Source: Rhizobiales bacterium 62-17 (GTDB taxonomy: Bacteria > Pseudomonadota > Alphaproteobacteria > Rhizobiales > Beijerinckiaceae). Taken from it: a stretch of DNA of 64,000 bases. The translations under genes were made by a program, and so were the position numbers. Shown here in pieces: positions 1 through 15,690 of this stretch; the stretch's first letter is position 1, and each line of letters starts with the position of its first letter. The stretch lies in assembly GCA_001898965.1 (NCBI GenBank), contig MKVW01000006.1, positions 112,882 through 176,881 of the forward strand, given 5' to 3'. The notes beneath the pieces were generated by a model, which saw nothing but the letters and a program-made list of their open reading frames with translations, was not told the origin of the DNA and did no database searches.

Positions 1-178
1 GGGCGCTGGGCACGACGCGGCCTTTGTCGCGAAGATCGCGCCAAGTGCTATGCTGTTCATTCCTTGCCGCGATGGCAAAAGCCACGCGCCGGAGGAGTGG
101 ACCGAGCCGGAACAGATCGCGGCCGGAGCTACCGCTATTTTTGAAGCCGTGCGGCTTCTCGACGGACACAACAGCTAA
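1..178 (+). CDS. M20-family amidohydrolase (N-carbamoyl-amino-acid hydrolase / allantoate amidohydrolase type), C-terminal end only
   Basis: The first 58 readable codons (frame starting at base 2, stop TAA at 176-178) are the end of a gene that begins before the window. The peptide carries GAGHDA and SHAPEE, the C-terminal signatures of dinuclear-metal M20 amidohydrolases that open N-carbamoyl-L-amino acids, ureidoglycolate or allantoate; the His of SHAPEE is a metal ligand in the family. It lies 11 bases before the DUF917 gene on the same strand, so they are probably cotranscribed. In known thiohydantoin/ergothioneine catabolism the equivalent enzyme hydrolyses N-carbamoyl-glutamate. The substrate here cannot be fixed from the fragment. 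Confidence 0.85.
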   Translation, partial: GAGHDAAFVAKIAPSAMLFIPCRDGKSHAPEEWTEPEQIAAGATAIFEAVRLLDGHNS

Positions 179-189
179 CGGAGCCGGAT

Positions 190-1278
190 ATGGGACGCAT
201 TCTGACGGCGCGCGATGTAGATTGCGCAGGCAAGGGCGGTGCGGTGTTTGCGGCGGGCGGTGGCGGCTGGGCCGATCATGGCCGTATGCTTGGCACGGCC
301 GCGGTCAATGCCGGCCAGCCAGAATTGGTGTCCATGGACGAAGTGCCCGATGATGCCTGGATCGCCACCGCCGCGGCCATTGGCGCACCGGCCAGCACCA
401 CCGAATGGCAGATGCTCGGCGTCGATTATGTCAAAGCCGTGCAGCTCGTACAGAAGGAACTCGGCGCACCGATCCACGGCCTGATCATCGGTCAGAACGG
501 CAAGTCCAGCACGATGAACGCCTGGCTTCCATCAGCCATTCTCGGCACCAAGGTGATCGATGCGGTCGGCGATATCCGCGCCCATCCCACAGGCGACATG
601 GGATCGATCGGCCTTGCCAATTCGCCGATCCCAATGATTCAGTCGGCGGTGGGCGGCAATCGCAGCAAGAATGCCTATATCGAGCTGGTGGTACGCGGCG
701 CGACGGCCAAGATTTCACCGATCCTGCGCACGGCCTCGGATATGTCGGGTGGGTTCATCGCCTCCTGCCGCAATCCGGTGCCAGCCTCCTATGTGAAGAA
801 ACATGCAGCGCTCGGCGGCATTTCCATCGCTTTGGCGTTGGGCGAAGCCATTTTGAAGGCTGAACCTAAGGGCGGGACGGCTGTCGTCGATGCCATCTGT
901 AAGGAAACCAAGGGCGAGATTATCGGCCAGGGCAAGGTGATGAAAAAGGCGGTGACCTACACCAATGAAGCCTTCGACATTGGCACGATCACGATCAACG
1001 AGGGCGCCAAGGCGATTACTTTGCACGTGATGAATGAGTATATGGCGGTGGAAGATGCGCAAGGCACGCGCCTCGCCACGTTCCCAGACGTCATCACCAC
1101 CCTGGACAAGAATGGCGTTCCGGCCAGCGTCGGTGAGATCAGGGAAGGTGACGAACTTCTGGTGCTGCGCATCGCCAAGAACGTCATTCCCCTGTCCTCT
1201 AGCGTCACCGATCCGTCTGTCTATCCGATCGTCGAAAAGGCGCTCGGTCTCAATCTGACCGACTATGCTCTGAGCTGA
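190..1278 (+). CDS. DUF917 family protein (S-methyl-thiohydantoin desulfurase-like)
   Basis: A 362-residue protein matching DUF917 over its full usual length. The N-terminal half (about residues 1-160) contains the family's Gly-rich start (FAAGGGGW) and the segment DMGSIGLANSP; the C-terminal half (about 165-362) contains the conserved GEIREGDELLVLR-like stretch. Members have been linked to removal of sulfur from thiohydantoins during ergothioneine and S-methyl-ergothioneine breakdown; others are annotated only as hydantoinase-associated proteins. It sits between an M20 amidohydrolase end and a urocanase-like gene with gaps of 11 and 10 bases, which supports a role in a (thio)hydantoin pathway. 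The family call is firm; the reaction is inferred from context. Confidence 0.88.
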   Translation: MGRILTARDVDCAGKGGAVFAAGGGGWADHGRMLGTAAVNAGQPELVSMDEVPDDAWIATAAAIGAPASTTEWQMLGVDYVKAVQLVQKELGAPIHGLIIGQNGKSSTMNAWLPSAILGTKVIDAVGDIRAHPTGDMGSIGLANSPIPMIQSAVGGNRSKNAYIELVVRGATAKISPILRTASDMSGGFIASCRNPVPASYVKKHAALGGISIALALGEAILKAEPKGGTAVVDAICKETKGEIIGQGKVMKKAVTYTNEAFDIGTITINEGAKAITLHVMNEYMAVEDAQGTRLATFPDVITTLDKNGVPASVGEIREGDELLVLRIAKNVIPLSSSVTDPSVYPIVEKALGLNLTDYALS

Positions 1279-1288
1279 GGTTTTAGAG

Positions 1289-2941
1289 ATGGCGCAGCGT
1301 GTATTTTCCGTAACGTCCGGCGACCAACTGCGATGCAAGGGCTGGCGCCAGGAAGCGCTATTGCGCCTCTTGGAGAACGTGCTGGCCGTCGGCGAGGATC
1401 CGAACAATCTCGTCGTCTATGCCGCGCTCGGCCGTGCCGCGCGCGACTGGCCTTCGCACGACAAGATCGTCGAGACATTAAAGACGATCGAGGATGGTGA
1501 AACCCTGCTCGTGCAATCGGGCAAGCCGATCGGTGTCATCAAGACCCACGCCAAGGCGCCGGTCATCATCATGGCCAATTGCAACATGGTTGGCCAATGG
1601 GCCAAGGCCGAGAATTTCTACGAACTGGCGAAGAAAAACCTAATCTGCTGGGGCGGTCTCACCGCCGGTGACTGGCAATATATCGGCTCGCAAGGCGTTA
1701 TTCAGGGTACCTACGAAATCTTTATGCGCATCGCGGCCAAACATTTCGGCGGCGATCTCGCTGGGCGCTTCGTACTCACCGCCGGCATGGGCGGCATGGG
1801 TGGGGCGCAGCCGCTGGCGGGCAAGATGGCTAAGGCGGCGATCCTTTGTGTCGACGTCGACGAATCTCGCATCGACAAGCGCATGACGATTGGTTTTGTC
1901 GATGTCAAAGCGAAGACATTGGATGAAGCGCTGGAGATGATCCGCAAGGCCCAGGCAGAAAAGAGGCCACTGTCCGTTGGTTTGTGCGCCAATGCGGCCG
2001 ATGTCTATCCGGAGATTGCCCGTCGCGGTATCATACCCGATGTGGTGACCGATCAGACCGCCGCGCACGATCTCGTCTATGGCTATGTGCCGGCCGGCCG
2101 GACGCTCGACGAAGTGCGGGAACTGCGCAAGGGCGATCCAAAGATCTTGATGGGCGAATCGATCCAGTCGATCGTTCGCCACGTCTCCGCGATGCTGGAC
2201 TTTCAAAAAAAGGGCGCGGTTGTTTTCGACAACGGCAATCTGATCCGCACTCATGCCAAGAATGGCGGTGTTGAAAACGCATTCGACATTCCGATCTTCA
2301 CCGAAGCATTCTTGCGTCCACTTTTCGCACGAGCCATTGGTCCGTTCCGCTGGGTGGCGCTCTCGAACGATCCAGACGACATCAAGAAGATCGATGATCT
2401 CGTGCTCGAAAAGTTTGGCGACAATCAGATCGTCTCGAACTGGATCAAACTGGCGCGTCAGCATGTGCCGTTCGAGGGGCTGCCGGCGCGCATCGCTTGG
2501 CTCGGCCACGGCGAGCGCACCGAACTGGGCCTTGCCGTCAACCAGATGGTGCGCGAGGGCAAGCTGGCGGGACCCATTGCCTTCACCCGCGATCATCTCG
2601 ATGCCGGCGCCATGGCCCATCCCAATATCATGACGGAGAACATGCGGGACGGCTCCGACGCGATCGCCGACTGGCCATTGCTTAACGCCATGGTGCATTG
2701 TGCCTCCCAGGCCGATCTGGTGGCCGTCCATTCCGGTGGCGGCGGCTATTCCGGCTACATGACCAGCGCTGGCGTCACTCTGGTGGCGGACGGGTCTGAG
2801 GCCGCCGACGAGCGTCTATCGTTGTCCTTGACCAACGACACGACCACGGGCGTGATGCGCTATGCCGATGCCGGATATGAGGAAGCCTTGGACGAAGCGC
2901 GCCAGAAGAACATCCGGCATTTCCGGCTTCCGCCCCAGTAG
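1289..2941 (+). CDS. Urocanate hydratase-like protein (possible thiourocanate or related heterocycle hydratase)
   Basis: A 550-residue protein of normal urocanase length. It keeps the family hallmarks DWQYIGSQGVIQGTYE, LTAGMGGMGGAQP with the NAD-binding Gly-rich turn, DVDESRIDKR, and GSDAIADWPLLNA. Two sites differ from true HutU. The conserved Cys in LFCRGIGPFRW is Ala347 here (LFARAIGPFRW), and the HHGGGVGMG loop reads HSGGGGYSG. In Pseudomonas urocanase that Cys is essential, so a substrate other than plain urocanate is likely. No hutH, hutI or hutG lies nearby. Neighbours (M20 hydrolase, DUF917) point to thiourocanate or a similar ring acrylate. The start at 1289 leaves a 10-base gap after DUF917. 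Confidence 0.9.
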   Translation: MAQRVFSVTSGDQLRCKGWRQEALLRLLENVLAVGEDPNNLVVYAALGRAARDWPSHDKIVETLKTIEDGETLLVQSGKPIGVIKTHAKAPVIIMANCNMVGQWAKAENFYELAKKNLICWGGLTAGDWQYIGSQGVIQGTYEIFMRIAAKHFGGDLAGRFVLTAGMGGMGGAQPLAGKMAKAAILCVDVDESRIDKRMTIGFVDVKAKTLDEALEMIRKAQAEKRPLSVGLCANAADVYPEIARRGIIPDVVTDQTAAHDLVYGYVPAGRTLDEVRELRKGDPKILMGESIQSIVRHVSAMLDFQKKGAVVFDNGNLIRTHAKNGGVENAFDIPIFTEAFLRPLFARAIGPFRWVALSNDPDDIKKIDDLVLEKFGDNQIVSNWIKLARQHVPFEGLPARIAWLGHGERTELGLAVNQMVREGKLAGPIAFTRDHLDAGAMAHPNIMTENMRDGSDAIADWPLLNAMVHCASQADLVAVHSGGGGYSGYMTSAGVTLVADGSEAADERLSLSLTNDTTTGVMRYADAGYEEALDEARQKNIRHFRLPPQ

Positions 2942-2957
2942 ACACAGGTTAGGACTG

Positions 2958-4319
2958 ATGACCGATCAAAGCATGCGCGGCTTTATGGGCGTTCTCGAAC
3001 AGACGGGTGAACTGCATCGTGTGAAGCGGTCTGTCGATCCGCGTTTCGAGCTTGGCGCGGTGCTGGCGCTGAAGGATCGCGGCCCAGGCCTGTTGTTCGA
3101 AAGGATCAATGGTCATTCCATGCCGGTCGTCGGCAATCTGCTGTCGATGCGCGCCCGTTTTGCTGCCGCACTCGGTGTCGAGCCAAGCGCACTGGACGCG
3201 ATCTTGCAGAAGGCGCTCGCTTATCCGATCGCGCCGGTCATGGTCGACGAGGGGCCGGTTCAAGAGATCGTGCATCAGGAAAAGATCGATCTTGGGAGAC
3301 TGCTGCCGGTGCCGACCTGGTTCGAGCGGGAGGCTGCGCCCTATGTCACCGCGGGCGTCATCATCGCCAAGGATCCGGAAACCGGCCGTCGTAATGTCTC
3401 CATCGCCCGTCTGCGGCTGGACGGTGGCGGAAAGATCATGGCTGGCATCGCCAAGAACCATCATCTCTATATTCTCGCTGACAAGGCGAAGGCACTTGGC
3501 CGCAAGCTCGAAATCGCCGTCGCTATCGGCAATCACACGGCCGTTCTGCTGGGGTCGCAGCTCTATCTCGGTCTCGGTGACGACGAATACGACACGGTTG
3601 GCGGTCTGCTTGGCGAAGCCCTGCAATTGGTACGTTGCAAGACGGTCGATCTGGAAGTTCCTGCCCACGCCGAAATCGTGCTGGAAGGGGAGCTTGATCC
3701 CAACGATCTGATCGACGAAGGTCCCGTCTCCGAATTTCACGGCTTCTATGTCAATTACGGAGCAGGTATCGGCGGCATCATTCGCTGCGTTACCCACCAG
3801 CGCGACGCGATCTATCAGGCTATTCTGCCCGGCTATGCCAGCGAACATTGTTTGCTCGGTGGCGTAGCCATTGGCGCGACCCTCTGCCAGGCATTGCAGC
3901 GCATGATTCCGGCGGTGCGCCGCGTCGTCATCACTGAAGGCGGCATGGGCCGTCTGCACGCGGTGATTTCCATGCATCAGCCGCGTCTGGGTGAGGGTGC
4001 CCGTGCGGTCATGCTCGCCATGGGCCAGGTCAATCTTTTGAAACTGGTGATCGTCGTCGAGGACGATGTCGATCCGGAAAATGCACGCGAAGTCGAATGG
4101 TCGCTCGCTGCGCGTTTCCGCGGCGGAGAGGATCTGATCGTCGTTCCGCACGTCAAGGCGGACCGTTGCGATCCGGTCCATGAAAATCTCACGGTAACAA
4201 AAATCGGTATGGTGGCTACCACGCGGCCGGGAGATGGGAGCACCGACAGCCGTTCAGAGTGGGCACGTGCTCCTCGCTCGGTTCTTGATGAAGTTCGCAA
4301 AAATCTGACTGAATATTAG
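2958..4319 (+). CDS. UbiD family decarboxylase
   Basis: A 453-residue protein, typical UbiD length, starting at the ATG at 2958 (MTDQSMRGF), 16 bases after the urocanase-like gene. UbiD enzymes use prenylated FMN to (de)carboxylate aromatic or alpha,beta-unsaturated acids; the cofactor is made by UbiX, which is not in this window. Recognisable parts are the N-terminal FMN-proximal region, the VSIARLRLD segment where the family has its active-site Arg, EIVLEGEL, the Glu of VSEFHGFY, and the C-terminal trimerisation half beginning near ITEGGMGRLH. It is last in the plus-strand cluster and faces a minus-strand ABC operon 60 bases on. A decarboxylase is not part of the known ergothioneine route, so its substrate is open. 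Confidence 0.9.
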   Translation: MTDQSMRGFMGVLEQTGELHRVKRSVDPRFELGAVLALKDRGPGLLFERINGHSMPVVGNLLSMRARFAAALGVEPSALDAILQKALAYPIAPVMVDEGPVQEIVHQEKIDLGRLLPVPTWFEREAAPYVTAGVIIAKDPETGRRNVSIARLRLDGGGKIMAGIAKNHHLYILADKAKALGRKLEIAVAIGNHTAVLLGSQLYLGLGDDEYDTVGGLLGEALQLVRCKTVDLEVPAHAEIVLEGELDPNDLIDEGPVSEFHGFYVNYGAGIGGIIRCVTHQRDAIYQAILPGYASEHCLLGGVAIGATLCQALQRMIPAVRRVVITEGGMGRLHAVISMHQPRLGEGARAVMLAMGQVNLLKLVIVVEDDVDPENAREVEWSLAARFRGGEDLIVVPHVKADRCDPVHENLTVTKIGMVATTRPGDGSTDSRSEWARAPRSVLDEVRKNLTEY

Positions 4320-4378: not shown

Positions 4379-5386
4379 TCAAATCTTATCCTCGTGCGGA
4401 GGCAGCCGGGTTGTCGGTAACAGAGACCAGCCAAAGCGTGCTTCCAAAAAACCCCAGATGCCGCGACGTGCAAAGATCATGGTGATGATGGCGATCGTCC
4501 CCAGAACGATCATGTAGACGGGGCCGAGATTGGCCAGGAATTCGCGCAATAAAAAGTAGACGGCGGTGCCGACGATGGCGCCTTCGAGGCGGCCAATTCC
4601 GCCGATGACGACGATGAAAATAATGGTCACTGTCCAGTCATTCAGACTGAAACCGCTGGCCGGCGAAATACGCAGCTTTTGTAAAAAGATGAGTGACGAC
4701 ACGGCGCTGACGGCAGCAGCGACGCCGACATAGGTCCAGAATTTCGCCCGCCAGATATCGATACCGAGCGAGGCGGCTGCTGTGGGATTATCGCGCAGGG
4801 CTGTCAGCGCGAGCCCCACCTTGGAACGCAGAAGAGCGTATGCACCAAACAGGGTGCCGGTGCCTGCGGCCAACAGCAGCCAGTAGATGATGAACTCGCG
4901 CGTCGACCGATCTTCGGCAATGCCTCGTACGACAGCGGCCGGTAGCGACATGCCAGCGCCGCCACCGAGCTGTGGGATCATTGTGAAGACAAGATAGATC
5001 GTTTCGGCGGCCACCCAGCTGCCGATGGCGAAATACGCGCCTTCGAGGCGAAACAGTAATGGCGCGAAGAGTGCGGCGGCCAGCGCAGCCAGCACAATGC
5101 CAAGCAGAATCGCGACATAGGGTGAGACACCAAGGAATATGGTGGCGGAAAACAGCGTATAGCCGCCAATGCCGACGAAAGCCTGCTGGCCAACCGACAG
5201 CAGGCCAGCATAGCCGGCCAGCAGATTCCACAAGAGCGCCAGGGTTAGCAGGCTGTACATTTCGCCGAGCAGACGCAGGCCTGCCCGGTCGGCCCAGAGC
5301 GGCGCGGCGGCAAGCCCGATGACTAAGAGCGCAGAGATCGCGATGAATCTGCGCCAATCGGAAGACGGGTGCGACGGTTCGCTCAT
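4379..5386 (-). CDS. Branched-chain amino acid-type ABC transporter permease (LivM family)
   Basis: A 335-residue, very hydrophobic protein with about nine predicted membrane spans, a cytoplasmic N-terminus (MSEPSHPSSDWRR) and the LivM signatures NLLAGYAGLLSVGQQAFVGIGGY and VIGGIGRLEGAIVGTA. It should form the inner-membrane channel together with the LivH-type protein encoded just upstream (3-base gap). This is the last gene of the operon transcribed leftwards from about 7713. The binding protein is probably the divergent gene at 9558. Liv-type importers often carry aromatic or heterocyclic acids rather than amino acids in catabolic clusters, which is likely here. Confidence 0.93.
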   Translation of the reverse strand: MSEPSHPSSDWRRFIAISALLVIGLAAAPLWADRAGLRLLGEMYSLLTLALLWNLLAGYAGLLSVGQQAFVGIGGYTLFSATIFLGVSPYVAILLGIVLAALAAALFAPLLFRLEGAYFAIGSWVAAETIYLVFTMIPQLGGGAGMSLPAAVVRGIAEDRSTREFIIYWLLLAAGTGTLFGAYALLRSKVGLALTALRDNPTAAASLGIDIWRAKFWTYVGVAAAVSAVSSLIFLQKLRISPASGFSLNDWTVTIIFIVVIGGIGRLEGAIVGTAVYFLLREFLANLGPVYMIVLGTIAIITMIFARRGIWGFLEARFGWSLLPTTRLPPHEDKI

Positions 5387-5389
5387 GGC

Positions 5390-6253
5390 CTACGGTGCCT
5401 TCGGGAATAGGCCACGCGGACGCAGCGCGAGAATGATGAAGAAAACCAGATGGCCGGAGAGGATCTGCATATTCGGCGAAATCTGCGCGCCGAACGACTG
5501 CGCTAATCCCAATACGAGGCCGCCGGCAAGAGTGCCGTAAAAACTGCCGAGGCCGCCAATGATGACGGCTTCAAAGCCGTAAATCAGTCGCGCCGGCCCT
5601 GAATACGGATCGAAGTTCGAACGCATGGCCAGGAAGACGCTGGCGATGGCAATGGTGGCAAAAGAGATGGCCATGGCCAAAGCATAGATGTGATCGGCAC
5701 GCACACCGATCGCTGAAGCGATCTGTGGATCGTCAGAGGTGGCACGAAAGGCGCGGCCGATCCGGGTACGGGCGAAGATAAACTCCAACACGATCACGAG
5801 GACAACAGCCATCAGCAAAGTGAAGAGCGGCAGCAAACCGATCTGGATCGAACCAAGTGGCAGACTGCTCGTCTGCAAGGAACCCGCGGACAAGCGCATA
5901 CTGTTGCTGGTGAAAGCCGCGAGCAATGCATTCTGGATAATGACGGCGAGCCCGAATGTCACCAGCAGCGGCGGCAAGACGTCGTCGTCCCCCATGGTGC
6001 GGTTGAGCACCCATTTTTGCAGGAGATAGCCGATCACTGCCATGATCGGGATGACGACGAGAAGCGCCACGAGTGGATGCAATCCGGTGGCGCCGATCAC
6101 CAGATAAGCAATATAGGCTGCTAGAACGATAAAATCGCCGTGCGCGATATTGACGAGGCGCATGACGCCGAAGATCAGCGACAGGCCGATGGCGAAAAGA
6201 GTGTACAGGCCGCCCAGAAGAAGACCGCCGATCAGGGTATCGATCACGTTCAC
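5390..6253 (-). CDS. Branched-chain amino acid-type ABC transporter permease (LivH family)
   Basis: A 287-residue integral membrane protein with the LivH motifs YTLFAIGLSLIFGVMRLVNIAHGDF near the N-terminus (residues about 17-42) and EAVIIGGLGSFYGTLAGG near the C-terminus. It starts at GTG 6253, preceded by GGGAGAG at a good distance on the minus strand. It pairs with the LivM-type permease downstream and the two ATPases upstream. The gene order livG-livF-livH-livM on the minus strand indicates a single transcript. Confidence 0.93.
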   Translation of the reverse strand: MNVIDTLIGGLLLGGLYTLFAIGLSLIFGVMRLVNIAHGDFIVLAAYIAYLVIGATGLHPLVALLVVIPIMAVIGYLLQKWVLNRTMGDDDVLPPLLVTFGLAVIIQNALLAAFTSNSMRLSAGSLQTSSLPLGSIQIGLLPLFTLLMAVVLVIVLEFIFARTRIGRAFRATSDDPQIASAIGVRADHIYALAMAISFATIAIASVFLAMRSNFDPYSGPARLIYGFEAVIIGGLGSFYGTLAGGLVLGLAQSFGAQISPNMQILSGHLVFFIILALRPRGLFPKAP

Positions 6254-6269
6254 GGTTGCTCTCCCACGG

Positions 6270-6974
6270 TCACTCTCCGAAATAGGTGACGGTGAGGTCG
6301 TGCAGCGTCAGCGTTTCCGCCGCGCCATCGAGGACGATGCGGCCTTCGCGGATGCACACGAGATGTCGAGCGATCTTGCGCACGCGAGCGATGTCCTGTT
6401 CGACGACGATGGCGCCGACACCGCTGGCGAGAATGGCTGGAAAGGCCGCATAGACCTCGTTGACGACGATCGGTGCGAGGCCGAGCGAAATTTCATCGAA
6501 AAGAATAAGGTCGGGATTGGCGATCAGTGCTCGGCCGATAGCCACCATCTGCTGTTGGCCGCCAGAAAGCGACAGCGCCGGCGCATGGCGCTTTTCGGCA
6601 AGAATGGGGAACAGCGCATAGATGCGCTCCAGGGTCCAATGGCCTTTGCGCCCATAGTCCCCTGCGATCCGCAGATTCTCCTCGACGCTCAACGAGCGAA
6701 ACAGGCGACGGCCTTCCGGCACCATGGCGATGCCAAGCGTCGCGAGATCGCTGGTCGGCAGGGCTCCGATGGGCTGGCCGCGAAATCGCACCATATCCTG
6801 CTGGCGCGGCAGGAGGCCCATGATGGCACGAAACAAGGTGGTCTTGCCGGCGCCATTGGCACCGACGAGGCCGAGCATTTCGCCTTGTTGCAGATCAAAA
6901 CTGAGCTCGAACAAGGCTTGGAAATCGCCATAACCCGACGACAGACGATCTATGGAGAGCAGCGGTTCAGCCAT
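6270..6974 (-). CDS. ABC transporter ATP-binding protein (LivF family)
   Basis: A 234-residue ATPase of LivF type. Walker A is GANGAGKTT (about residues 36-44), the signature is LSGGQQQM, and Walker B ends in LILFDE followed by the D-loop region ISLGLAP. Start ATG 6974 has GGAGAG seven bases before it and overlaps the end of the LivG-type gene by 8 bases, indicating translational coupling. It energises import by the two permeases downstream. Confidence 0.94.
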   Translation of the reverse strand: MAEPLLSIDRLSSGYGDFQALFELSFDLQQGEMLGLVGANGAGKTTLFRAIMGLLPRQQDMVRFRGQPIGALPTSDLATLGIAMVPEGRRLFRSLSVEENLRIAGDYGRKGHWTLERIYALFPILAEKRHAPALSLSGGQQQMVAIGRALIANPDLILFDEISLGLAPIVVNEVYAAFPAILASGVGAIVVEQDIARVRKIARHLVCIREGRIVLDGAAETLTLHDLTVTYFGE

Positions 6975-7713
6975 GGGCGCTCTCCGCTTCCAGACCGAGA
7001 TAAATCGAGGAGACTTCCGGGCTCTTCATGATGGTTGCGGGATCGCCTTCGGCGATCTTCTGGCCGAAATCGAGGACGATCACTCGATCGACGATGGAGA
7101 GCAGCGCGTGCAACACATGCTCGATCCAGATGATGGTGGTCCCTTCGGAATGGATCTTGCGGATGAGTGCCACCAGTTCTTGGCACTCCGACTCGGTCAG
7201 GCCGCCGGCGATCTCGTCGAGCAGAAGCAGGCGCGGCGCCGTCGCGATCGAGCGTGCCAATTCCAAACGCTTGCGGTCGAGCAGGGTGATCTCGCCGGCG
7301 CGCAATTGGGCCTTGGGCCACAGGCCCGTGCGCTGCAAAGCCTCGGCTGCGGGCGCGCGTGCCTCCCGCTGCGACAATTTCTGGCCGAAAGCTGCCGCGA
7401 CCAGCGTGTTCTCGAAAACCGTCATGCCGCCAAAAGGCTGCGGCACCTGGAATGATCGGGTGATGCCCATATGACAACGGCTGCGCGCACTTGCCGTGGT
7501 GATATCCTGGCCAAAAAAACTGATGCGTCCCGCATCGGCCCGAATAATGCCAGTGAAGAGATTGAACAGGGTCGTCTTGCCGGCGCCATTCGGCCCGATG
7601 ATGCCGATGGCTTCGCCGGCACGCACCGTCAGCGATACGTCTTTCGTCACCGACAAAGCGCCATAGGCCTTGCACAGCCCAACGACTTCCAGTGCGATCT
7701 CGTCCGACGACAT
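6967..7713 (-). CDS. ABC transporter ATP-binding protein (LivG family)
   Basis: A 248-residue LivG-type ATPase beginning MSSDEIALEV at 7713. This start is preferred over an in-frame one at 7734 because GGGAGGGGG lies directly before it on the minus strand. Walker A is GPNGAGKTT, with the LivG insert FQVPQPFGGMTVFEN. Walker B is LLLLDEIAGGL. The usual signature region is altered: the family's LSYGxQRxLEIARAL reads LLDRKRLELARSIA here, a deviation seen in several LivG paralogues. It is the first gene of the leftward operon; the promoter must lie in 7714-7886. Confidence 0.92.
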   Translation of the reverse strand: MSSDEIALEVVGLCKAYGALSVTKDVSLTVRAGEAIGIIGPNGAGKTTLFNLFTGIIRADAGRISFFGQDITTASARSRCHMGITRSFQVPQPFGGMTVFENTLVAAAFGQKLSQREARAPAAEALQRTGLWPKAQLRAGEITLLDRKRLELARSIATAPRLLLLDEIAGGLTESECQELVALIRKIHSEGTTIIWIEHVLHALLSIVDRVIVLDFGQKIAEGDPATIMKSPEVSSIYLGLEAESAHG

Positions 7714-7886
7714 GCCCCCTCCCGGCTCGCCCAAACGCTTTGGCCCAGCGTAAGGCTTGGCCTATCCACCCAGACAGAGCTAAGATAAAGATAGATTATA
7801 AGCAATAGAATATATTATTTATTGCCCGTCGCGCCCCACCGTGCCATTGTCCCGGATGTGGGAGCGGGCGATCTTGGGAGGACGCT
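7714..7886. promoter_or_regulatory. Divergent intergenic region with AT-rich imperfect dyad
   Basis: This 173-base stretch separates the leftward ABC operon from the rightward monooxygenase gene and must hold both promoters. Bases 7785-7824 are strikingly AT-rich in GC-rich surroundings. Within it GCAATA (7802-7807) and TATTGC (7820-7825) form an inverted repeat with 12 bases between the arms, a candidate operator. The monooxygenase has GGGAGGACGCT (7875-7885) as its ribosome-binding region. No dedicated regulator gene lies next to this region. Confidence 0.45.
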
Positions 7887-9515
7887 GTGAGCAAATCCGT
7901 CCAGCGGTACGATTATGATGTGATCCAGATCGGCTATGGTCCGGTGAGCAAGGCTTCGGCGCTCTTTCTGGATAGGGCGGGCTGGCGGGTCGGCATTTTC
8001 GAGCGCTTCCGGGAAGTATATCCGCTGCCGCGCGCGGTCTGCATCGATCATGAGATTTTTCGCGTTCTGCACGCCGCCGGGCTTGGCGACATTGTCGACC
8101 GCGTCACGTCGCCGGCGCCGGTGTATCGCTGGTTCAACGCCGAGTGGAAACAGCTCTTGGCGATCGATTGGACTATGGGCTCGACTTCCGGTGGCACGGA
8201 AGTGAATTTCGTCCATCAGCCGAGCTTCGAATGGGCGATGGATGAGGAGATCAAGGCGCGGCCCGGTCTCGACTTGCATTTGCACCACGAGGCGGTGGCG
8301 ATCGAACAGGATGATGACAAGGTCATCGTCACGGTGCGTGACACGGAGACAGGCGAAACCCGCCAGGTGACGGCGCGTTATGTGATCGGCATTGATGGTG
8401 CCAATAGCTTCGTGCGCCAAAGCCTGGGCATCACTCAGCAGGATCTTGGTTTCGAGGCCGACTGGCTAGTGATTGACTTCACGTTAAATAATGGCCTCAC
8501 GGCACGCGATCTCGGCATTCCTGAATGCGGTCAGTTCTGTAATCCCGTGCGTCCGACCACCATTGTGCCCGGCGGCATTGAGAATGGCCGTGTCTGCCGG
8601 CGCTGGGAATTCATGCGCCTGCCGCACGAGACCAAAGAGGAAATGGTCGTCGAAGCGAAGGTCTACAAATTGCTGGAGGACTGGATCAAGCCGGACCAGG
8701 GCGAGTTGGTTCGGCACACGCTTTATTCTTTCCGCTCGCTCGTCGCCGACAAATGGCGCGATGGCCGCATTCTGCTGGCCGGCGACGCCGCTCATGTGAT
8801 GCCGCCCTTCATGGGGCAAGGTATGTGCTCGGGCATGCGCGACGTATGGAACCTGACCTGGAAGCTCGATCGCGTCATGCGCGGTGCAGCGTCCGATACT
8901 TTACTTGATAGCTATCAGCCTGAACGGGCGCCGCATGTCACGGATGTGATCAAGACTTCGATCTTCCTGGGTTCCATCATCTGCATGCCCGATGAAAAGC
9001 AGGCAGCCGATCGCGATGCCATGTTCCTGAGCGGCAATGCGCCGGAGCCAGCCCCCTTTCCCATGCTCACAGACGGCTTTCTTGAGCGCGATGCAAGAGG
9101 CGCTGTCGTTGCGCCCGCTGGTCAGCTCTCGCCACATGGCACCGTGCGCCATCAAGGCCGTACGGAACGGTTCGATCGTTTCGTCGAAACCGGTTTCACC
9201 CTGATCCTGTCGAATGGGCTTGTCGCTACCGATCTCGGTGCCGGTGCTTGGACCATTCTGGAAAAGCAGGGTGTGCAGGTGGTTACCATCGCCGATCGCC
9301 GCAAGGCGAGCGACACGGAGATTGGTGACACGCAAGGACAGTTCCAGCGTTTCATGGAAGCGCATGGCATCAAAGCCATGCTGGTACGGCCCGATTTCTA
9401 TCTATTCGGCGGCGCCACCGATACTCAGCGACTGGAAACGATGATTTCCGCTTTCGGGGCGCAGGCGGCGGCCATGAATCTGACTTCGGTGAACCGCAAA
9501 GAAATCTCGGCCTGA
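7887..9515 (+). CDS. FAD-dependent aromatic monooxygenase (MhpA-like, class A flavoprotein hydroxylase)
   Basis: A 542-residue flavoprotein resembling 3-(3-hydroxyphenyl)propionate hydroxylase. The N-terminal FAD fold starts near residue 11; the GxGxxG motif reads GYGPVS (16-21), so the third Gly is Ser21. The second FAD motif GDAAH is at 299-303, followed by PPFMGQGMCSGMRD. The last 150 residues fit the thioredoxin-like domain of the family. It should insert one oxygen atom into a phenolic or heterocyclic substrate with NAD(P)H. It is divergent from the ABC operon and is followed after 42 bases by that system's likely binding protein. Exact substrate unknown. Confidence 0.88.
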   Translation: MSKSVQRYDYDVIQIGYGPVSKASALFLDRAGWRVGIFERFREVYPLPRAVCIDHEIFRVLHAAGLGDIVDRVTSPAPVYRWFNAEWKQLLAIDWTMGSTSGGTEVNFVHQPSFEWAMDEEIKARPGLDLHLHHEAVAIEQDDDKVIVTVRDTETGETRQVTARYVIGIDGANSFVRQSLGITQQDLGFEADWLVIDFTLNNGLTARDLGIPECGQFCNPVRPTTIVPGGIENGRVCRRWEFMRLPHETKEEMVVEAKVYKLLEDWIKPDQGELVRHTLYSFRSLVADKWRDGRILLAGDAAHVMPPFMGQGMCSGMRDVWNLTWKLDRVMRGAASDTLLDSYQPERAPHVTDVIKTSIFLGSIICMPDEKQAADRDAMFLSGNAPEPAPFPMLTDGFLERDARGAVVAPAGQLSPHGTVRHQGRTERFDRFVETGFTLILSNGLVATDLGAGAWTILEKQGVQVVTIADRRKASDTEIGDTQGQFQRFMEAHGIKAMLVRPDFYLFGGATDTQRLETMISAFGAQAAAMNLTSVNRKEISA

Positions 9516-9557
9516 ACGATATTCGGGCCTTCGTTTTTGCCTGACGGAGGGAACAGC

Positions 9558-10829
9558 ATGAGCAGACTAACACGAAGAGTCGTGCTGCGCGGTGGCACGA
9601 TCGCAACCGCGACACTCGCTATGCCGGCGGTTCTGCGTCCGGCTCTGGCGCAAGCCAAACCGATCAAGATCGGCTTCATCAGTCCGACGACCGGACCGAT
9701 CGCCGCTTTCGGTGCCTCCGATGACTATGTGCTGGCCGGCGTGCGCAAGGCGATCGCGGGTGGCATCACTATTGGCGGCAAGACCTATCCGGTGCAGATC
9801 ATCACCCGCGATAGCCAATCCAATCCAAATCGCGCGGCGGAAGTCGCTTCGCAGCTCATCCTCGACGACAAAGTCGATCTGATGCTGGCCTCGAGCACAG
9901 CGGACACGACGAACCCCGTGGCTGATCAGTGTGAGCTCAATGAAGTACCCTGTATCACCACTGATACGCCATGGGATGGCCATTTCTTCGGCCGAGGCGG
10001 CAATCCGGCGAAGGGATTCAATTGGACCTACCATTTCTTCTGGGGTGCCCAGCAAATCGTCGATTCCTATGCCTCGTTGTGGGACCAACTCTCGACCAAC
10101 AAGAAGGTCGGCGTGTTGTGGTCGAACGATAGCGACGGCGTGCCGCTCTCCAACGCCAAGACAGGTCTGCCGCCGCTCTTCACCAAGCGCGGCTACGAAT
10201 TGGTTGATGCCGGTTTCCATCAGCCGCTTTCGGATGACTTCTCAGCCCAGATCGGCAAACTGAAAGACGCTGGCGTCGATATCGTCACCGGCATCTTTTT
10301 ACCGCCGGATTTCACGACGTTCTGGACGCAGGCGGCCCAGAAGGGTTTTCGGCCGAAGGCCGCAACCGTCGCCAAGGCGCTTCTGTTCCCCAGCTCCGTG
10401 GAATCGCTCGGTGCCAACGGTAGTGGCGTTTCGAGCGAAGTCTGGTGGTCGCCCAATCATCCTTATGTCTCCGGCCTCACGGGCGAAAGTTCCAAGGTGT
10501 TGGCGGACGGCTATACAGCGGCGACCGGCCGGCAATGGGTGCAGCCGACGGGGTATAAGCACGCTCTGCTCGAAGTGGCGATCGATGTCTTGAAGCGCTG
10601 CGGCGATCCGACGAAGCCAACGGCGATCCGCGATGCCATCGTCGCAACAGACTATAAATCAGTTGTCGGGCCGATCAGTTGGAAGAACGGGCCCGTCAAA
10701 AACGCTTGTGCAACGCCGCTAGTGGGTGGGCAATGGCTCGCCAAAGGCGACGGAAAATTCGATCTCATTGTTTGCGAGAACAAAACGGCGCCTGAAATAC
10801 CGGTTCAGGCACCTTTCAAGGCTCTTTGA
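9558..10829 (+). CDS. ABC transporter substrate-binding protein (Liv/urea type, Peripla_BP_6), Tat-exported
   Basis: A 423-residue periplasmic binding protein beginning MSRLTRRVVLRGG at 9558, with GGAGGGA just upstream. The N-terminus has twin arginines (TRRVVLRG), a hydrophobic stretch and an ALAQA cleavage region near residue 34, so export by Tat is expected. The mature part starts with IKIGFISPTTGPIAAFG, the opening of Liv-type binding proteins. It probably feeds the LivGFHM-type importer encoded divergently at 4379-7713, which has no binding protein of its own in that operon. Confidence 0.92.
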   Translation: MSRLTRRVVLRGGTIATATLAMPAVLRPALAQAKPIKIGFISPTTGPIAAFGASDDYVLAGVRKAIAGGITIGGKTYPVQIITRDSQSNPNRAAEVASQLILDDKVDLMLASSTADTTNPVADQCELNEVPCITTDTPWDGHFFGRGGNPAKGFNWTYHFFWGAQQIVDSYASLWDQLSTNKKVGVLWSNDSDGVPLSNAKTGLPPLFTKRGYELVDAGFHQPLSDDFSAQIGKLKDAGVDIVTGIFLPPDFTTFWTQAAQKGFRPKAATVAKALLFPSSVESLGANGSGVSSEVWWSPNHPYVSGLTGESSKVLADGYTAATGRQWVQPTGYKHALLEVAIDVLKRCGDPTKPTAIRDAIVATDYKSVVGPISWKNGPVKNACATPLVGGQWLAKGDGKFDLIVCENKTAPEIPVQAPFKAL

Positions 10830-10967: not shown

Positions 10968-11720
10968 TTAGTGCACCCGTCTGGTTGTCCATGGCAGCAA
11001 GCGGCGTTCGCTGATGAGCAGAAGCTGATTGATGAAGAACCCGATCATGCCGATGACAATCAGCCCGGCGTAAAGGTCCGCGCTGCGATACAGCCGTTGC
11101 GCCATGAAGATGTCATAACCGACACCGCGCAACGAAGCCTGCATTTCGGTGACCACCGTCAGGATAAGCGATAGCGCCAGGCCGATTCTCAGGCCCGGAA
11201 TGATATCGACCAAAGCCGATGGCAGCGAGATGGTGAAGAAGTAACGCAGGCGGCTCATTTCAAGCATGGTGCCGACTTCACGCAATTGTCGCGGAACCGA
11301 CTGGAAACCGTGGATTGTCGCGAGCAGGGCAGGCCAAAGCGAACCGAAAGCGATGACGACGATCGACATCGTGTCATTGAGGCCAAGGAGGAGAATTGCG
11401 ACAGGAATGACGGCCGATGCGGGCAGTGGCCGGAGGGCTTCCAAGGTCGGCATGAAGACTTGTTGCGCCAAGCGTGAACTGCCGATGCCCGCGCCGATAA
11501 GAATGCCCAGAAGCGAGGCGAGCAACCAGCCTGAGGCCATGCGCGCGATCGTGGCCAGGATGCTCTCGAACAAGGCGCCACTGCCGATTTGCCTGATGAT
11601 AACCGCGATGGCGTCGGCTGGATCGGCGACGAAGGTGCGATTGACCAGTTCGAAGCGGACGGCCAGATGCCAGAGGGCAAGCATCAGTGCTGTGAAGACC
11701 AACATCATCGCCACGCGCAT
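10968..11720 (-). CDS. NitT/TauT-type ABC transporter permease (SsuC-like), second copy
   Basis: A 250-residue permease starting MRVAMMLVF at 11720. An in-frame TTG at 11747 would add nine residues and overlap the previous gene by 8 bases, with AGGAAGG very close to it, so the start is uncertain. About six membrane spans are seen, with the binding-protein-dependent transport motif in SLPSALVDIIPGLRIGLALS (EAA loop region). It is the last gene of an operon with a second permease, a binding protein and an ATPase. The family imports sulfonates, nitrate, thiamine precursors, riboflavin or aromatic acids. Confidence 0.88.
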   Translation of the reverse strand: MRVAMMLVFTALMLALWHLAVRFELVNRTFVADPADAIAVIIRQIGSGALFESILATIARMASGWLLASLLGILIGAGIGSSRLAQQVFMPTLEALRPLPASAVIPVAILLLGLNDTMSIVVIAFGSLWPALLATIHGFQSVPRQLREVGTMLEMSRLRYFFTISLPSALVDIIPGLRIGLALSLILTVVTEMQASLRGVGYDIFMAQRLYRSADLYAGLIVIGMIGFFINQLLLISERRLLPWTTRRVH

Positions 11721-11739
11721 GTGCGTTCCGTCCGTGGCA

Positions 11740-12495
11740 TTAGGCAAGCCTTCCTATTCTGGTGTAATCGAGCAGCTTCGACAGGCCACCGAAGATAGCG
11801 CCCAGGATCGCCAGCCAAACGATGAGGGCATACATGAGGTCGGGACGAAAAGTCTGTTGTGCCACGATGAGCGCATAGCCGAGGCCCCGTGGATTGCTCA
11901 GAATTTCGACGGTGACGGCCACGACCAAAGCGAAAGCGATCGCCGTGCGCAAGCCGACGACGACACGGGCGAAGACCGCCGGCGCAATGATAGTGCGCAG
12001 ACGCCGCTGCGGGCTCATCTCCAATACGGAGGCGATTTCCAGTAAGCGGGGATCAATATTGCGGACTGCGGTCAAAGTGGCGATGAAAATCGGCCAGCAG
12101 CAGGCATAGGCGACGATGGCGACTTCCATCGACAGACCGAAGCCCAATAATAGCAGGGCCAGTGGCGTAAAAGCGATCGCTGGAATTGAACGCAACATTT
12201 CTGTGGTCGGTCGCGCCGCGACTTCGAGACCGGTTCGCAGCCCCAGAAGAATGCCGAGGGCAACGCCGAACACGAAACCCAGCACGAGACCGACGACCGC
12301 AGCCTCCAGCGTCTCGCGCGTGGCTTGGATTAGCGAGCCGTCTCTGGCCGCCTCGGCGATGGCCGCGACGATCGCCGTGGGCTGCGAGAATATGCGGGGA
12401 TCCAAGGTGCCGGTCCGCGTCGCCACTTCCCAACCGAGAAGCAGGCAGATCGGCACGATGGCGGAGAGGGGCGACGGGCGCATCGCGATTGTCAT
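11740..12495 (-). CDS. NitT/TauT-type ABC transporter permease (SsuC-like), first copy
   Basis: A 251-residue inner-membrane permease with six predicted spans and the EAA-like loop APAVFARVVVGLRTAIAFAL. It lies 7 bases downstream of the binding-protein gene. Two non-identical permeases in one operon suggest a heterodimeric channel, whereas SsuC and TauC normally act as homodimers. Confidence 0.9.
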   Translation of the reverse strand: MTIAMRPSPLSAIVPICLLLGWEVATRTGTLDPRIFSQPTAIVAAIAEAARDGSLIQATRETLEAAVVGLVLGFVFGVALGILLGLRTGLEVAARPTTEMLRSIPAIAFTPLALLLLGFGLSMEVAIVAYACCWPIFIATLTAVRNIDPRLLEIASVLEMSPQRRLRTIIAPAVFARVVVGLRTAIAFALVVAVTVEILSNPRGLGYALIVAQQTFRPDLMYALIVWLAILGAIFGGLSKLLDYTRIGRLA

Positions 12496-12502
12496 CCAAT
12501 GC

Positions 12503-13432
12503 CTAGTCCGGCAGAAAGACGAGTTTTTGGGTGTCGACGTTCGAACGGATCAGGCCGAATTCGCGCGAGACATCAACGAAGAAGCTGAAATCGTCAGGAA
12601 CGATCTCCACCTTCCAGTTGGGCGTGAAAGACGAGCTGACATTCAGATACTTCTTGCCCATCTCGGAGGCTTCTTCGCGGTTCGTCTTGATCCACGTGGC
12701 GCTCTCATTCAGACAGGCCCGGAATGCTCGGATCGCTTCGGGATTCTTGCGCGCCCATGCGCCCGTCGCGGCCCAGAAGGTGATCATCGCACCATCTGCG
12801 ACCGACGAATAATATTCTACCTCTGCCCGGCGGCCGAGACCTTGTGCGACAAGGCCGGACATCACGGGTTCAACGGTGACGACCCCGTCGAGGGTCTTCG
12901 ACTTCAGCATTTCCGCCATGCGCGGTAAGGCCACTTCCACGTAGACGACTTTGTTGGCGGGAACTCCACTCGTCGTCAGCCATTTGCGAAAGACCAGATC
13001 CGCTACGCTCATGAGGCCTGGCACGCCGATCTTCATCCCTTCGAGCTTGCTGGCAGCATCAACTTTCAGATCAGGCCGAGCCACGATGCTGACACCCTCG
13101 TTCCCCTTTGCCATCCAGGACATGCCCGCTATGGCGGCGACATCGAGCCCATTCTCGACCGCTGGCAGGAGAATTGTCGGTGTGCTCATGCCAATCTGGA
13201 GCGATCCAGAAAGCAGCGCTGGCGGAATATTCGTCGCGATAGGTACGACGGTCAGTTGCGCATCATATCCGGCCTTGGCGAGACAGCCGCGCTCCTTAGC
13301 GACGATGGCCGGCAGGAAATCCAAAGCCGGCGGATAGCCGATCGCGAGCTTCGTGAGGTTTTGCGCCTGAGTCGGTTGCAATGCCGAGGCTAGAGCAACT
13401 GCGGCGGTTAGAATCGCGAAACGAGATTTCAT
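12503..13432 (-). CDS. ABC transporter substrate-binding protein (NMT1/SsuA-like)
   Basis: A 309-residue protein starting MKSRFAILTAAVALASA at 13432, chosen because GGGGGGAAG lies just before that ATG; a longer frame to 13498 has no such site. The Sec signal peptide ends near PTQAQ (residue 24). The mature region begins LTKLAIGYPPALDFLPAIVAKERG, as in NMT1/SsuA-type proteins that bind sulfonates, pyrimidine precursors or aromatic acids. It is between the ATPase (62-base gap) and two permeases of the same operon. Confidence 0.9.
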   Translation of the reverse strand: MKSRFAILTAAVALASALQPTQAQNLTKLAIGYPPALDFLPAIVAKERGCLAKAGYDAQLTVVPIATNIPPALLSGSLQIGMSTPTILLPAVENGLDVAAIAGMSWMAKGNEGVSIVARPDLKVDAASKLEGMKIGVPGLMSVADLVFRKWLTTSGVPANKVVYVEVALPRMAEMLKSKTLDGVVTVEPVMSGLVAQGLGRRAEVEYYSSVADGAMITFWAATGAWARKNPEAIRAFRACLNESATWIKTNREEASEMGKKYLNVSSSFTPNWKVEIVPDDFSFFVDVSREFGLIRSNVDTQKLVFLPD

Positions 13433-13494
13433 ACTTCCCCCCTTTCTAGTAAAAATCGCTTGCCCTACGGTGTCGCGGGGCGCATTTCGGACAT

Positions 13495-14331
13495 TCAATG
13501 GCCGACGATGAGCTCGTGCAGCAGATGGCGCATGCGCAAGAATTCCGGCTCTTCTCGCGTCGCCAATTGATGGCGCGGCCGCGGCAGATCAATCGTCAGA
13601 TCGGCGAGCACGCGACCTGGATTTGCGCCGAGCGCGATCACCTTGTCGCCGAGATAGATCGCTTCTTCGAGATCGTGGGTGATGAAGACCACGGTAATTT
13701 TTTGCGCTGCGACGATGCTTAACAGCTCGTCTTGTAGCGATTGCCGTGTCAACGCATCGAGTGCGCCGAACGGTTCGTCCATCAGCAAAAGCTTCGGCTT
13801 CTGTGCGATACAGCGGGCAATCTGCACGCGCTGCTGCATGCCACCGGAAAGCTCCGAGGGATATTTACTGCTCGCGGCCGAAAGGCCTGTCATCGCCATC
13901 AGTCGCGTGACTGTCTCGGCAATTTCCTCCTTGGAGCGTCCTGTCCCTTCGAGACTTAACGCGATGTTGGAGCGTACCGATCGCCATGGCAGCAGGGCGC
14001 GGCCATAGTCCTGAAACACCATCGCGCGCTCGCGGGATGGTCCCGTGATGAGTGTTTCATCGAAGAGGATTTCGCCAGTCGTTGGTCGCTGCAACCCGGC
14101 AACCTGCCGCAGAAGGGTTGTCTTGCCGCAGCCGGATGCGCCGACTAGGCAAAGGATTTCACCCTTGGCCGCGTTAAAGGAAATATTCTCGAACACCACG
14201 TGACGCTTCTCGTCCACACCAAAGGTCATCGCCACGTTGCGAACGCTGACGGCCGGCGGGCGGTTTGGCGTTTCTATGACTTTGTGTTCGCTTCCCCTTG
14301 ATCCTGCAGCTTTGTGATCGACCGCAATCAT
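13495..14331 (-). CDS. ABC transporter ATP-binding protein (SsuB/TauB-like)
   Basis: A 278-residue ATPase with Walker A GASGCGKTT, Q-loop region VFQDYGRALLPWRSV, signature LSGGMQQR and Walker B LLLMDEPFGALD, all typical of nitrate/sulfonate/taurine importers. An N-terminal extension of about 25 residues precedes the domain. It is the first gene of the leftward importer operon, divergent from the AraC regulator at 14638. Confidence 0.94.
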   Translation of the reverse strand: MIAVDHKAAGSRGSEHKVIETPNRPPAVSVRNVAMTFGVDEKRHVVFENISFNAAKGEILCLVGASGCGKTTLLRQVAGLQRPTTGEILFDETLITGPSRERAMVFQDYGRALLPWRSVRSNIALSLEGTGRSKEEIAETVTRLMAMTGLSAASSKYPSELSGGMQQRVQIARCIAQKPKLLLMDEPFGALDALTRQSLQDELLSIVAAQKITVVFITHDLEEAIYLGDKVIALGANPGRVLADLTIDLPRPRHQLATREEPEFLRMRHLLHELIVGH

Positions 14332-14637
14332 CCAAACCCTTCCAATGGCGAAAGTTGGCGGTTTTGACCGCCTCTTTTGCCCGCAGGTTAGTGTGCGGCT
14401 GGATTTGGCTCTTGCTTAAAAGCGAGGGCGGTCTTGCTCGTGACCGCTAAGGCCGCCAAAAAGCCGATCTGCTTCGGGGTTCTGGCTGACGGCATACCTA
14501 CATGATCTACCTGGGTACTTATCTGGGCGCGATCTAAGACCTGTATCTCGACTGAGCAAAGCTTGGCTCTGGCCTTTCTCCAGTCGACGCCCTGACGCAA
14601 ACTTGTTACGGTTGTCGCGCGATTTCGAGGAAGGGAT
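14332..14637. promoter_or_regulatory. 306-base divergent control region with two related inverted repeats
   Basis: No gene is supported here; one open frame (14388-14672 minus) shows no family features and overlaps the AraC start. Two inverted repeats share half-sites: GGCGGT (14357-14362) with GACCGC (14366-14371; the perfect arm ACCGCC is 14367-14372), and GGCGGT (14427-14432) with GACCGC (14442-14447). The left halves begin exactly 70 bases apart, about seven helical turns. The near one lies 26-41 bases before the ATPase start and could also form an mRNA hairpin. The AraC gene has GAGGAAGGG (14627-14635) as its ribosome-binding site. Confidence 0.5.
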
Positions 14638-15612
14638 ATGAGTGCTCTCTCATTGACTGCGGAGCCGCCCATTCTGCGGGCCTCCGGGGCTCATTTTCAG
14701 AAGCAGATGAACGGGCTTCTCAAGACGCGTTTCGAGTTGACGTCGTCGGCGCGGCGCTCGTTTGATGGAGAGATTGCTCAAAGCTTCGTTTCCGAGCGGT
14801 TGCGTCTCGCCGATATCCGTTTCACGCCGCACTATACACGTCTGTTACCGGGCAAAGGGCGCAATCCCGCTCATAATGCGTTTCTAATTTCCTGGCAGAT
14901 CGAAGGTACCAGCCTGGTCCGACAGGGCGCCCGCGAGGCGCAGATCGGCGCGGGCGAGCTGTTTTTCATCGACACATCCGCTCCCTTCGCCATTGAGACG
15001 GACAATATTCGCACGCGCTCGATCTATCTCGACTCGCAACTCTGGCGGGATGTCTTTCCCGAGCGTCATCTCTACACCGCCACACCGATTCACGGCGACA
15101 GAGGGATGGGGCGTCTCTGTACTGATCTGGTCTCGCAACTCTTCGCGGCGGCAGCAACCCATCCGGCGGGCCTCGTATCGCGCATGGCGCTCAGCCTCGC
15201 CCATCTCGTCGCCGTGACGATGCTGAAGGAGAGGCCTGCACCTGCCGATGCCATGCTCGACAGACAGGGACATATCGGCCGCATTCGCAGCTTTGTCCTC
15301 GACAATCTTTCCGATCCGCAATTGGACGTCACTCTCATCAGCCGTCACATCGGCTTGTCGAAGAGACATATCCACCAGCTTTATGCCGCTAACGACATGT
15401 CGCTGATGCGCTGGATCTGGTCGGAACGACTGCATCGCGTGGCGCGCGATCTCGCCAATCCGGCACTTAAATTTAAGTCCGTTTCAGCCATCGCTTTCGA
15501 ATGGGGTTTCAGCGAAGCGGCACATTTCAGCCGTTCGTTCAAGGCACAGTTTGGCAAGAGCCCGACAGATTGGCGCAGCGAAGCGCTGGTGGACCTCGGC
15601 CACAAAATCTAA
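14638..15612 (+). CDS. AraC family transcriptional regulator
   Basis: A 324-residue regulator. Residues about 25-190 form an AraC-binding-like sensor domain (cupin-type beta segment around FLISWQIEGTSLVRQG and GELFFIDTSAPF). The last 100 residues are a two-helix-turn-helix AraC domain, with the signature around AIAFEWGFSEAAHFSRSFK and the closing FGKSPTDWR. It is transcribed away from the NitT-type importer and towards the molybdenum hydroxylase operon (convergent, 78-base gap), so it likely controls the importer and may control the ring-degrading operon too. Confidence 0.93.
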   Translation: MSALSLTAEPPILRASGAHFQKQMNGLLKTRFELTSSARRSFDGEIAQSFVSERLRLADIRFTPHYTRLLPGKGRNPAHNAFLISWQIEGTSLVRQGAREAQIGAGELFFIDTSAPFAIETDNIRTRSIYLDSQLWRDVFPERHLYTATPIHGDRGMGRLCTDLVSQLFAAAATHPAGLVSRMALSLAHLVAVTMLKERPAPADAMLDRQGHIGRIRSFVLDNLSDPQLDVTLISRHIGLSKRHIHQLYAANDMSLMRWIWSERLHRVARDLANPALKFKSVSAIAFEWGFSEAAHFSRSFKAQFGKSPTDWRSEALVDLGHKI

Positions 15613-15690
15613 GACAGTCGACAATCGGCGACAATCTTAGATCGGTTCTTCGAGCGACCCGCTGCCTGCTTCCTGCTATCTGCGAAATCG

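Follow-up and report, generated by a model that had tools for sequence, protein, structure and literature searches.

Bacterial catabolism of ergothioneine (Ert) reportedly proceeds in five steps, as reconstituted by Beliaeva, Leisinger and Seebeck in 2021. Ergothionase is structurally close to histidine ammonia-lyases (HAL) and lacks the MIO cofactor, according to PMC13405746. The locus described here encodes enzymes assignable to the later steps of this route, to which a UbiD-family gene is added.

Gene organization of the cluster

The window, i.e. the whole stretch of 64,000 nucleotides analysed (G000:C6:112882-176881), belongs to an unclosed genome of 5.66 Mb in 9 contigs, 99.31% complete. 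It opens with a plus-strand run formed by the end of an M20 hydrolase gene, a DUF917 gene, a urocanase homologue and a UbiD gene, separated by 11, 10 and 16 bases, respectively (Table 1). This run, with gaps of 10-16 bases, had been recognised in the original prediction; the frames are all present, and the domains score above cut-off. The genome contains the full M20 gene, at L002:13798-15060. A hydantoinase gene, looked for upstream as the prediction had suggested, is found there, preceded by genes for an ABC importer. All the genes of the cluster are on the plus strand except that of a LysR-type regulator. The UbiD coding sequence starts at the ATG at 2958; the same frame opens earlier, at 2862, and close relatives share in the alignment an MTDQSM start matching the former position.

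Table 1. Features of the cluster and adjoining gene (positions in the window, or in locus L002 where marked)
Feature	Position	Strand	Evidence or context
LysR-type regulator, 607 residues, two HTH_1 stretches	L002:6010-7833	minus	faces ABC importer
Branched-chain-type ABC importer, five genes	L002:8007-12413	+	upstream of ErtD; binding protein at L002:8007-9179
ErtD hydantoinase	L002:12410-13801	+	just upstream of ErtE (NCBIfam)
ertE-like M20 hydrolase (N-carbamoyl-L-glutamate amidohydrolase), 3' end	1..178	+	NF058540, PF01546
DUF917 / thiohydantoin desulfurase	190..1278	+	NF058529
Thiourocanate hydratase (urocanase homologue)	1289..2941	+	NF058530
UbiD-family prFMN decarboxylase (predicted)	2958..4319	+	PF01977/PF20695/PF20696, TIGR00148, 6h6v, motif
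Gene directly after UbiD	4379-5386	other strand	

Scores over the NCBIfam equivalog cut-offs were obtained for all four enzymes of the downstream route. The urocanase homologue scores 1032 bits on the thiourocanate hydratase profile (cut-off 930), DUF917 613 bits on that of thiohydantoin desulfurase (cut-off 440), ErtD 773 bits on the hydantoin-5-propionate amidohydrolase profile NF058538 (cut-off 600), and ErtE, which also matches PF01546, 593 bits on its own (cut-off 520). The solved chain nearest to the urocanase homologue is 7ned (839 bits; runner-up 632). As judged from these profiles, hydratase, desulfurase, ErtD and ErtE are the enzymes of the known Ert route from thiourocanate to glutamate, and the ergothioneine-like character attributed to the run in the original prediction is upheld. 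An S-methyl-thio route is ruled out in the window by the corresponding cut-offs: the urocanase homologue reaches 761 bits on the S-methyl-type profile (cut-off 880), and DUF917 274 bits on NF058532 (cut-off 450). Nor is the cluster a standard hut operon, the finding that according to the prediction would have contradicted it. The cluster includes no hut gene, and a urocanase-family search, which detects such enzymes in 5 of 14 control genomes, matches in this genome the window's gene alone, no HutU being detected besides it.

The LysR-type regulator looks like two fused LysR genes, and a similar LysR sequence adjoins the cluster in L012 (62%), L013 (47%) and L015 (58%). The genes at 4379-10829 were considered as cluster parts and discarded: those at 4379-7734 are on the opposite strand, and the genes following UbiD in L013 and L015 group elsewhere. 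This region, which looks like a separate aromatic-acid cluster, encodes a second branched-chain-type ABC transporter (minus strand), a substrate-binding protein and an MhpA-like FAD hydroxylase (NF004829, 524 bits, cut-off 390). The interval 10968-16503 hosts an ABC transporter whose binding protein resembles TauA, and a molybdenum-hydroxylase-like FAD subunit, both recognised by eye, as well as an AraC-type regulator whose best NCBIfam match, FeaR, is under cut-off.

Distribution of UbiD and ergothionase

A PF00221 (Lyase_aromatic) search and an ergothionase profile built from 11 ergothionase-like rows detected no ergothionase, the other gene that the prediction had proposed to look for upstream, in the cluster or in the rest of the window's genome. 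The single PF00221 protein of the genome carries the MIO-site motif GASGD, which ergothionases lack; it reaches 251 bits on the profile of the latter and 471 bits on hutH, under the hutH cut-off of 539. Applied to 35 of the 80 genomes described below, the ergothionase profile gave at least 560 bits in 12 of the 35, eight of which had supplied profile rows and four had not; other lyases scored at most 318 bits, G310 being ambiguous at 361. Seven matches to PF00206 lyases were set aside, given the structural likeness of ergothionase to HAL reported in PMC13405746. The PF00221 gene of the genome (G000:C1:458870-460348; L010, L210) encodes a relative of MIO-type histidine ammonia-lyases. It adjoins an allantoate-amidohydrolase-like M20 gene and a permease-like gene, and its product is 54% identical to the lyase found beside UbiD in L195.

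Gene neighbourhoods were compared in the best 80 of 370 hydratase relatives, up to 10 kb per side; these loci form neither a random sample nor an independent one, and contig ends interrupt many of them. The order M20-DUF917-urocanase-UbiD recurs on a single strand in 5 of the 80 (L012, L013, L015, L016, L019), which argues that the run is not due to chance. Counting UbiDs of at least 41% identity, UbiD lies near the hydratase in 12 loci and a non-MIO HAL-family lyase in 53, no locus having both and 15 having neither. The lack of the MIO site was checked by alignment for 52 of the 53 lyases, the one in L067 being too short. One UbiD locus, L039, features an MIO-type lyase.

A similar picture emerges from whole genomes. 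The set comprised the window's genome and those of 79 of the 80 loci (that of L013 was left out). All 80 genomes were searched with the UbiD profile, 9 of the 17 positive ones having supplied profile rows; in the 45 genomes outside the ergothionase search, a lyase beside the hydratase was counted as ergothionase. The UbiD subfamily is found in 17 genomes (in G301 and G326 as pieces only), ergothionase in 57, and neither in 7, G310 among them. Both are present only in G372, at separate loci. The nominal hypergeometric p for exclusion is 1.4e-10, a figure that takes no account of kinship or of the selection of the 80 closest relatives. The UbiD and ergothionase labels need 5 changes on the hydratase tree, at least 3 of which are forced by well-supported branches. 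Seven of the 80 genomes lack both UbiD and a clear ergothionase, so UbiD is not a constant feature of such clusters. Of 297 genomes sampled evenly across the order, 6 carry UbiD and 17 a hydratase over cut-off; the two are found together in the window's genome alone, which limits the association to certain lineages.

By these gene counts, UbiD is a recurrent, subfamily-specific partner of such clusters, nearly excluding ergothionase among the relatives examined. That it is a chance neighbour is rejected as main reading by its recurrence across loci and genomes. Because ergothionase was not found in the searches of cluster and genome, and UbiD recurs as a partner, the earlier suggestion of a branch, or of a related but different substrate, gains support.

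The UbiD subfamily and its neighbours

The window UbiD matches above cut-off three UbiD domains (PF01977, PF20695, PF20696) and TIGR00148 (304 bits, cut-off 245). The nearest solved chain is 6h6v (HmfF, E 1.9e-86), followed by E. coli UbiD when a single sequence is used, and by AnInD when a profile is used. Its subfamily is marked by the motif G-[IL]-A-x-N-H-H-L, found in the members covering the region except those of L195 and L196 (GIAPSHHL), and absent from the other UbiD-like frames found in the examined loci. Profile scores, broken copies aside, split into at least 549 and at most 370 bits. The subfamily forms one supported clade (25 rows, against 10 other UbiDs); on its tree, 3 switches from one context to the other, hydratase or lyase, are needed, and supported branches force each of them. 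One member from a Burkholderiales MAG (L018:1388-2790) is split over two reading frames, by a frameshift or an assembly error.

The phylum sample (398 genomes) yielded 2 genomes with a member, the class sample (385) 4 and the order sample (297) 6, the window's own genome always included; counts may be low, because at most 5 first-look candidates per genome were scored. UbiX, which supplies prFMN, is encoded in the window's genome at C3:286889 (TIGR00421, 245 bits, cut-off 109), and adjoins UbiD in L016, L019 and L192. The window UbiD is plausibly a prFMN decarboxylase of a rare, motif-marked subfamily linked to imidazole-acid catabolism.

UbiD genes of the subfamily are found also in other contexts. 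They accompany non-MIO lyases plus ErtD, UbiX or ErtE in L193, L194, L206 and L207, with no hydratase beside UbiD in the first three; an MIO lyase, ErtD, ErtE and UbiX in L195 and L196; another lyase in L198 and L209; UbiX and ErtD in L197 and L208. In L185 the partners are HutU and an S-methyl-thiourocanate hydratase (945 bits, cut-off 880), in L187 and L189 ABC importers, in L186 an enoyl-CoA hydratase and a TRAP transporter. Most of these gene contents point to imidazole-acid catabolism.

The binding protein of the window-type ABC importer, SBP1, was found at more than 60% identity in 7 loci, each with a subfamily UbiD in the locus or in the genome. No thiourocanate hydratase is alongside SBP1 in L187 and L189, and one is found elsewhere in those genomes. 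Importers next to UbiD vary (branched-chain amino acid-type, oligopeptide-type and sugar-type ABC, TRAP, MFS); hence no single transporter class follows, and the type of transporter was discarded as a clue to the substrate. Genes for CoA-transferase III and acyl-CoA dehydrogenases join the UbiD cluster in L016, L021 and L079/L086. They do not qualify as a fixed UbiD partner, ACADa being found in 5 of 12 UbiD loci and 4 of 68 others (nominal p 0.003). CoA-transferase III and acyl-CoA dehydrogenase genes lie near the hydratase also in L020, L023, L053 and L056, loci lacking UbiD, the last of which has a non-MIO lyase; in these, the module is possibly a further entry, from dihydro-thiourocanate.

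Proposed route and alternative explanations

The lack of a recognisable first enzyme and the added decarboxylase suggest a different starting compound. In the reading that we prefer, and to which we attach slightly less than even confidence, the cluster is a variant of the Ert operon devoid of ergothionase, in which the pathway would be entered by way of UbiD, from a carboxylated imidazole acid and not from ergothioneine. Weighing against it are the seven genomes with neither UbiD nor a clear ergothionase, the scarcity of UbiD together with hydratase in the order sample, the co-occurrence of UbiD and ergothionase in G372, the biased choice of the 80 loci, and the UbiDs with no hydratase beside them (L193, L194, L206). 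The ABC importer would take up an imidazole acid, on the assumption that it carries the UbiD substrate; UbiD would decarboxylate this acid, probably at a position on the imidazole ring, to give thiourocanate. The hydratase would then act on thiourocanate, the desulfurase would release sulfide, and ErtD and then ErtE would lead to glutamate. UbiD most likely acts before thiourocanate, at the place taken elsewhere by ergothionase, since no column, at the cut used, separates the two cluster types in hydratase (13 vs 53 rows), DUF917 (12 vs 53) and ErtD (11 vs 52). In ErtE (12 vs 50 rows), one weak column does. Had UbiD altered what these shared enzymes process, differences in their residues would be expected from one cluster type to the other.

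By analogy, we propose a ring-carboxylated (thio)imidazole acid as substrate, because the nearest UbiD relatives remove carboxylates from aromatic rings. To our knowledge no known compound fits, and no description of such a metabolite class was found in the literature searched. HudA, a pyrrole-2-carboxylate decarboxylase, converts a little imidazole-4-carboxylate (1.3%), according to PMC7976604. A link between UbiD and the Ert pathway is not mentioned in the titles and abstract openings of the matches listed, which leave out most subscription journals.

The original prediction also pointed to (thio)urocanate as the kind of acid that UbiD may decarboxylate. This part is not supported: it is possible but disfavoured. 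In its explicit form UbiD would turn thiourocanate into 4-vinylimidazole-2-thione, as a branch or overflow. Enzymes that form or consume urocanate-like acrylates are indeed among the neighbours of the subfamily (HAL-like lyases; hydratases of thiourocanate, S-methyl-thiourocanate and urocanate), and acrylic acids are also UbiD substrates, as stated in PMC8379154. Yet the reaction would drain the substrate that the hydratase of the same operon already uses, and no enzyme for a vinyl product is found among the annotated neighbours. The nearest solved relative, moreover, is the ring-acid decarboxylase HmfF (294 bits with the window UbiD as query), chains named as ferulic acid decarboxylases reaching 86-113 bits. 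All this makes the explanation improbable. We similarly give little credit to the idea that UbiD attacks not a ring carboxylate but a side-chain dicarboxylate, such as a thioimidazolyl fumarate or malonate, a saturated analogue being desaturated in some clusters by CoA-transferase and acyl-CoA dehydrogenases. DctP/DctM-type TRAP systems often carry dicarboxylates, and TRAP (DctP/DctM) or MFS genes cluster with UbiD and the CoA-transferase III and dehydrogenase genes in L016, L021, L079 and L086; but the latter module, missing in the window cluster, is also found in the UbiD-less loci mentioned above, and may therefore be a separate entry.

That the cluster salvages thiourocanate which other microbes release, UbiD being a helper of marginal or unrelated function, is unlikely. 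Cross-feeding of thiourocanate among gut bacteria is cited in PMC13405746, and the seven genomes with hydratase, devoid of both UbiD and a clear ergothionase, fit this view. The linkage to UbiD, however, is repeated in Alpha- and Betaproteobacteria, UbiX lies beside UbiD in some operons, and the subfamily is rare elsewhere, as in the phylum sample. It is even harder to believe that the pathway is ordinary ergothioneine catabolism, initiated by an unrecognised non-homologous lyase encoded elsewhere. The genome is unclosed and the search covered the HAL/ergothionase family, but the profile negative here is clearly positive in 12 of the same 35 genomes, and the presence of UbiD would be left unexplained.

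Our preferred reading, decarboxylation upstream of thiourocanate, may be extended, though we consider the extension doubtful. The NHH-motif UbiDs could be general imidazole-ring decarboxylases, passing ring-carboxylated relatives of histidine, thiohistidine or (thio)urocanate, a new metabolite class, on to lyase, hydratase and hydantoin steps. Thiourocanate would then be a hub with interchangeable entry modules, namely ergothionase, MIO lyase, CoA-transferase with acyl-CoA dehydrogenase, and UbiD. Were the preferred reading true, thiourocanate would have sources besides ergothioneine, prFMN decarboxylases would gain a role in imidazole catabolism, and the UbiD cluster would be a genome-based lead to a new natural metabolite.

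Comparison with known systems

The window UbiD can be aligned over its full length with HmfF (furan-2,5-dicarboxylate decarboxylase, 6h6v/6h6x) and AnInD (indole-3-carboxylate decarboxylase, 7p9q). In HmfF, the arginine for the second carboxylate is R304; the corresponding column, invariant in 10 alignment rows, is occupied in the window UbiD by Ile (I305). The residues of the E(D)-R-E network are kept: AnInD R155 and E266, as given in PMC8988006, align with R151 and E259, and the second acid, E254, is also conserved. AnInD D169 contacts the substrate nitrogen in docking, and its variants lose activity (PMC8988006); in the window subfamily, the place of D169 is occupied by the G-[IL]-A-x-N-H-H-L motif.

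The hut pathway has in common with the window cluster the urocanase fold and glutamate as end product, and differs for the hut genes, which the cluster lacks. The S-methyl-thiourocanate route (NF058531, NF058532) features homologous hydratase and DUF917 steps, but the window proteins are under its cut-offs and over the thio ones. With the Ert pathway the cluster shares, by scores over equivalog cut-offs, thiourocanate hydratase, thiohydantoin desulfurase, ErtD and ErtE; it differs in that the searches of cluster and genome revealed no ergothionase, and in the addition of UbiD and of a branched-chain-type ABC importer. The downstream route is already known, and what is new is the variant of it, with UbiD and, plausibly, another entry substrate.
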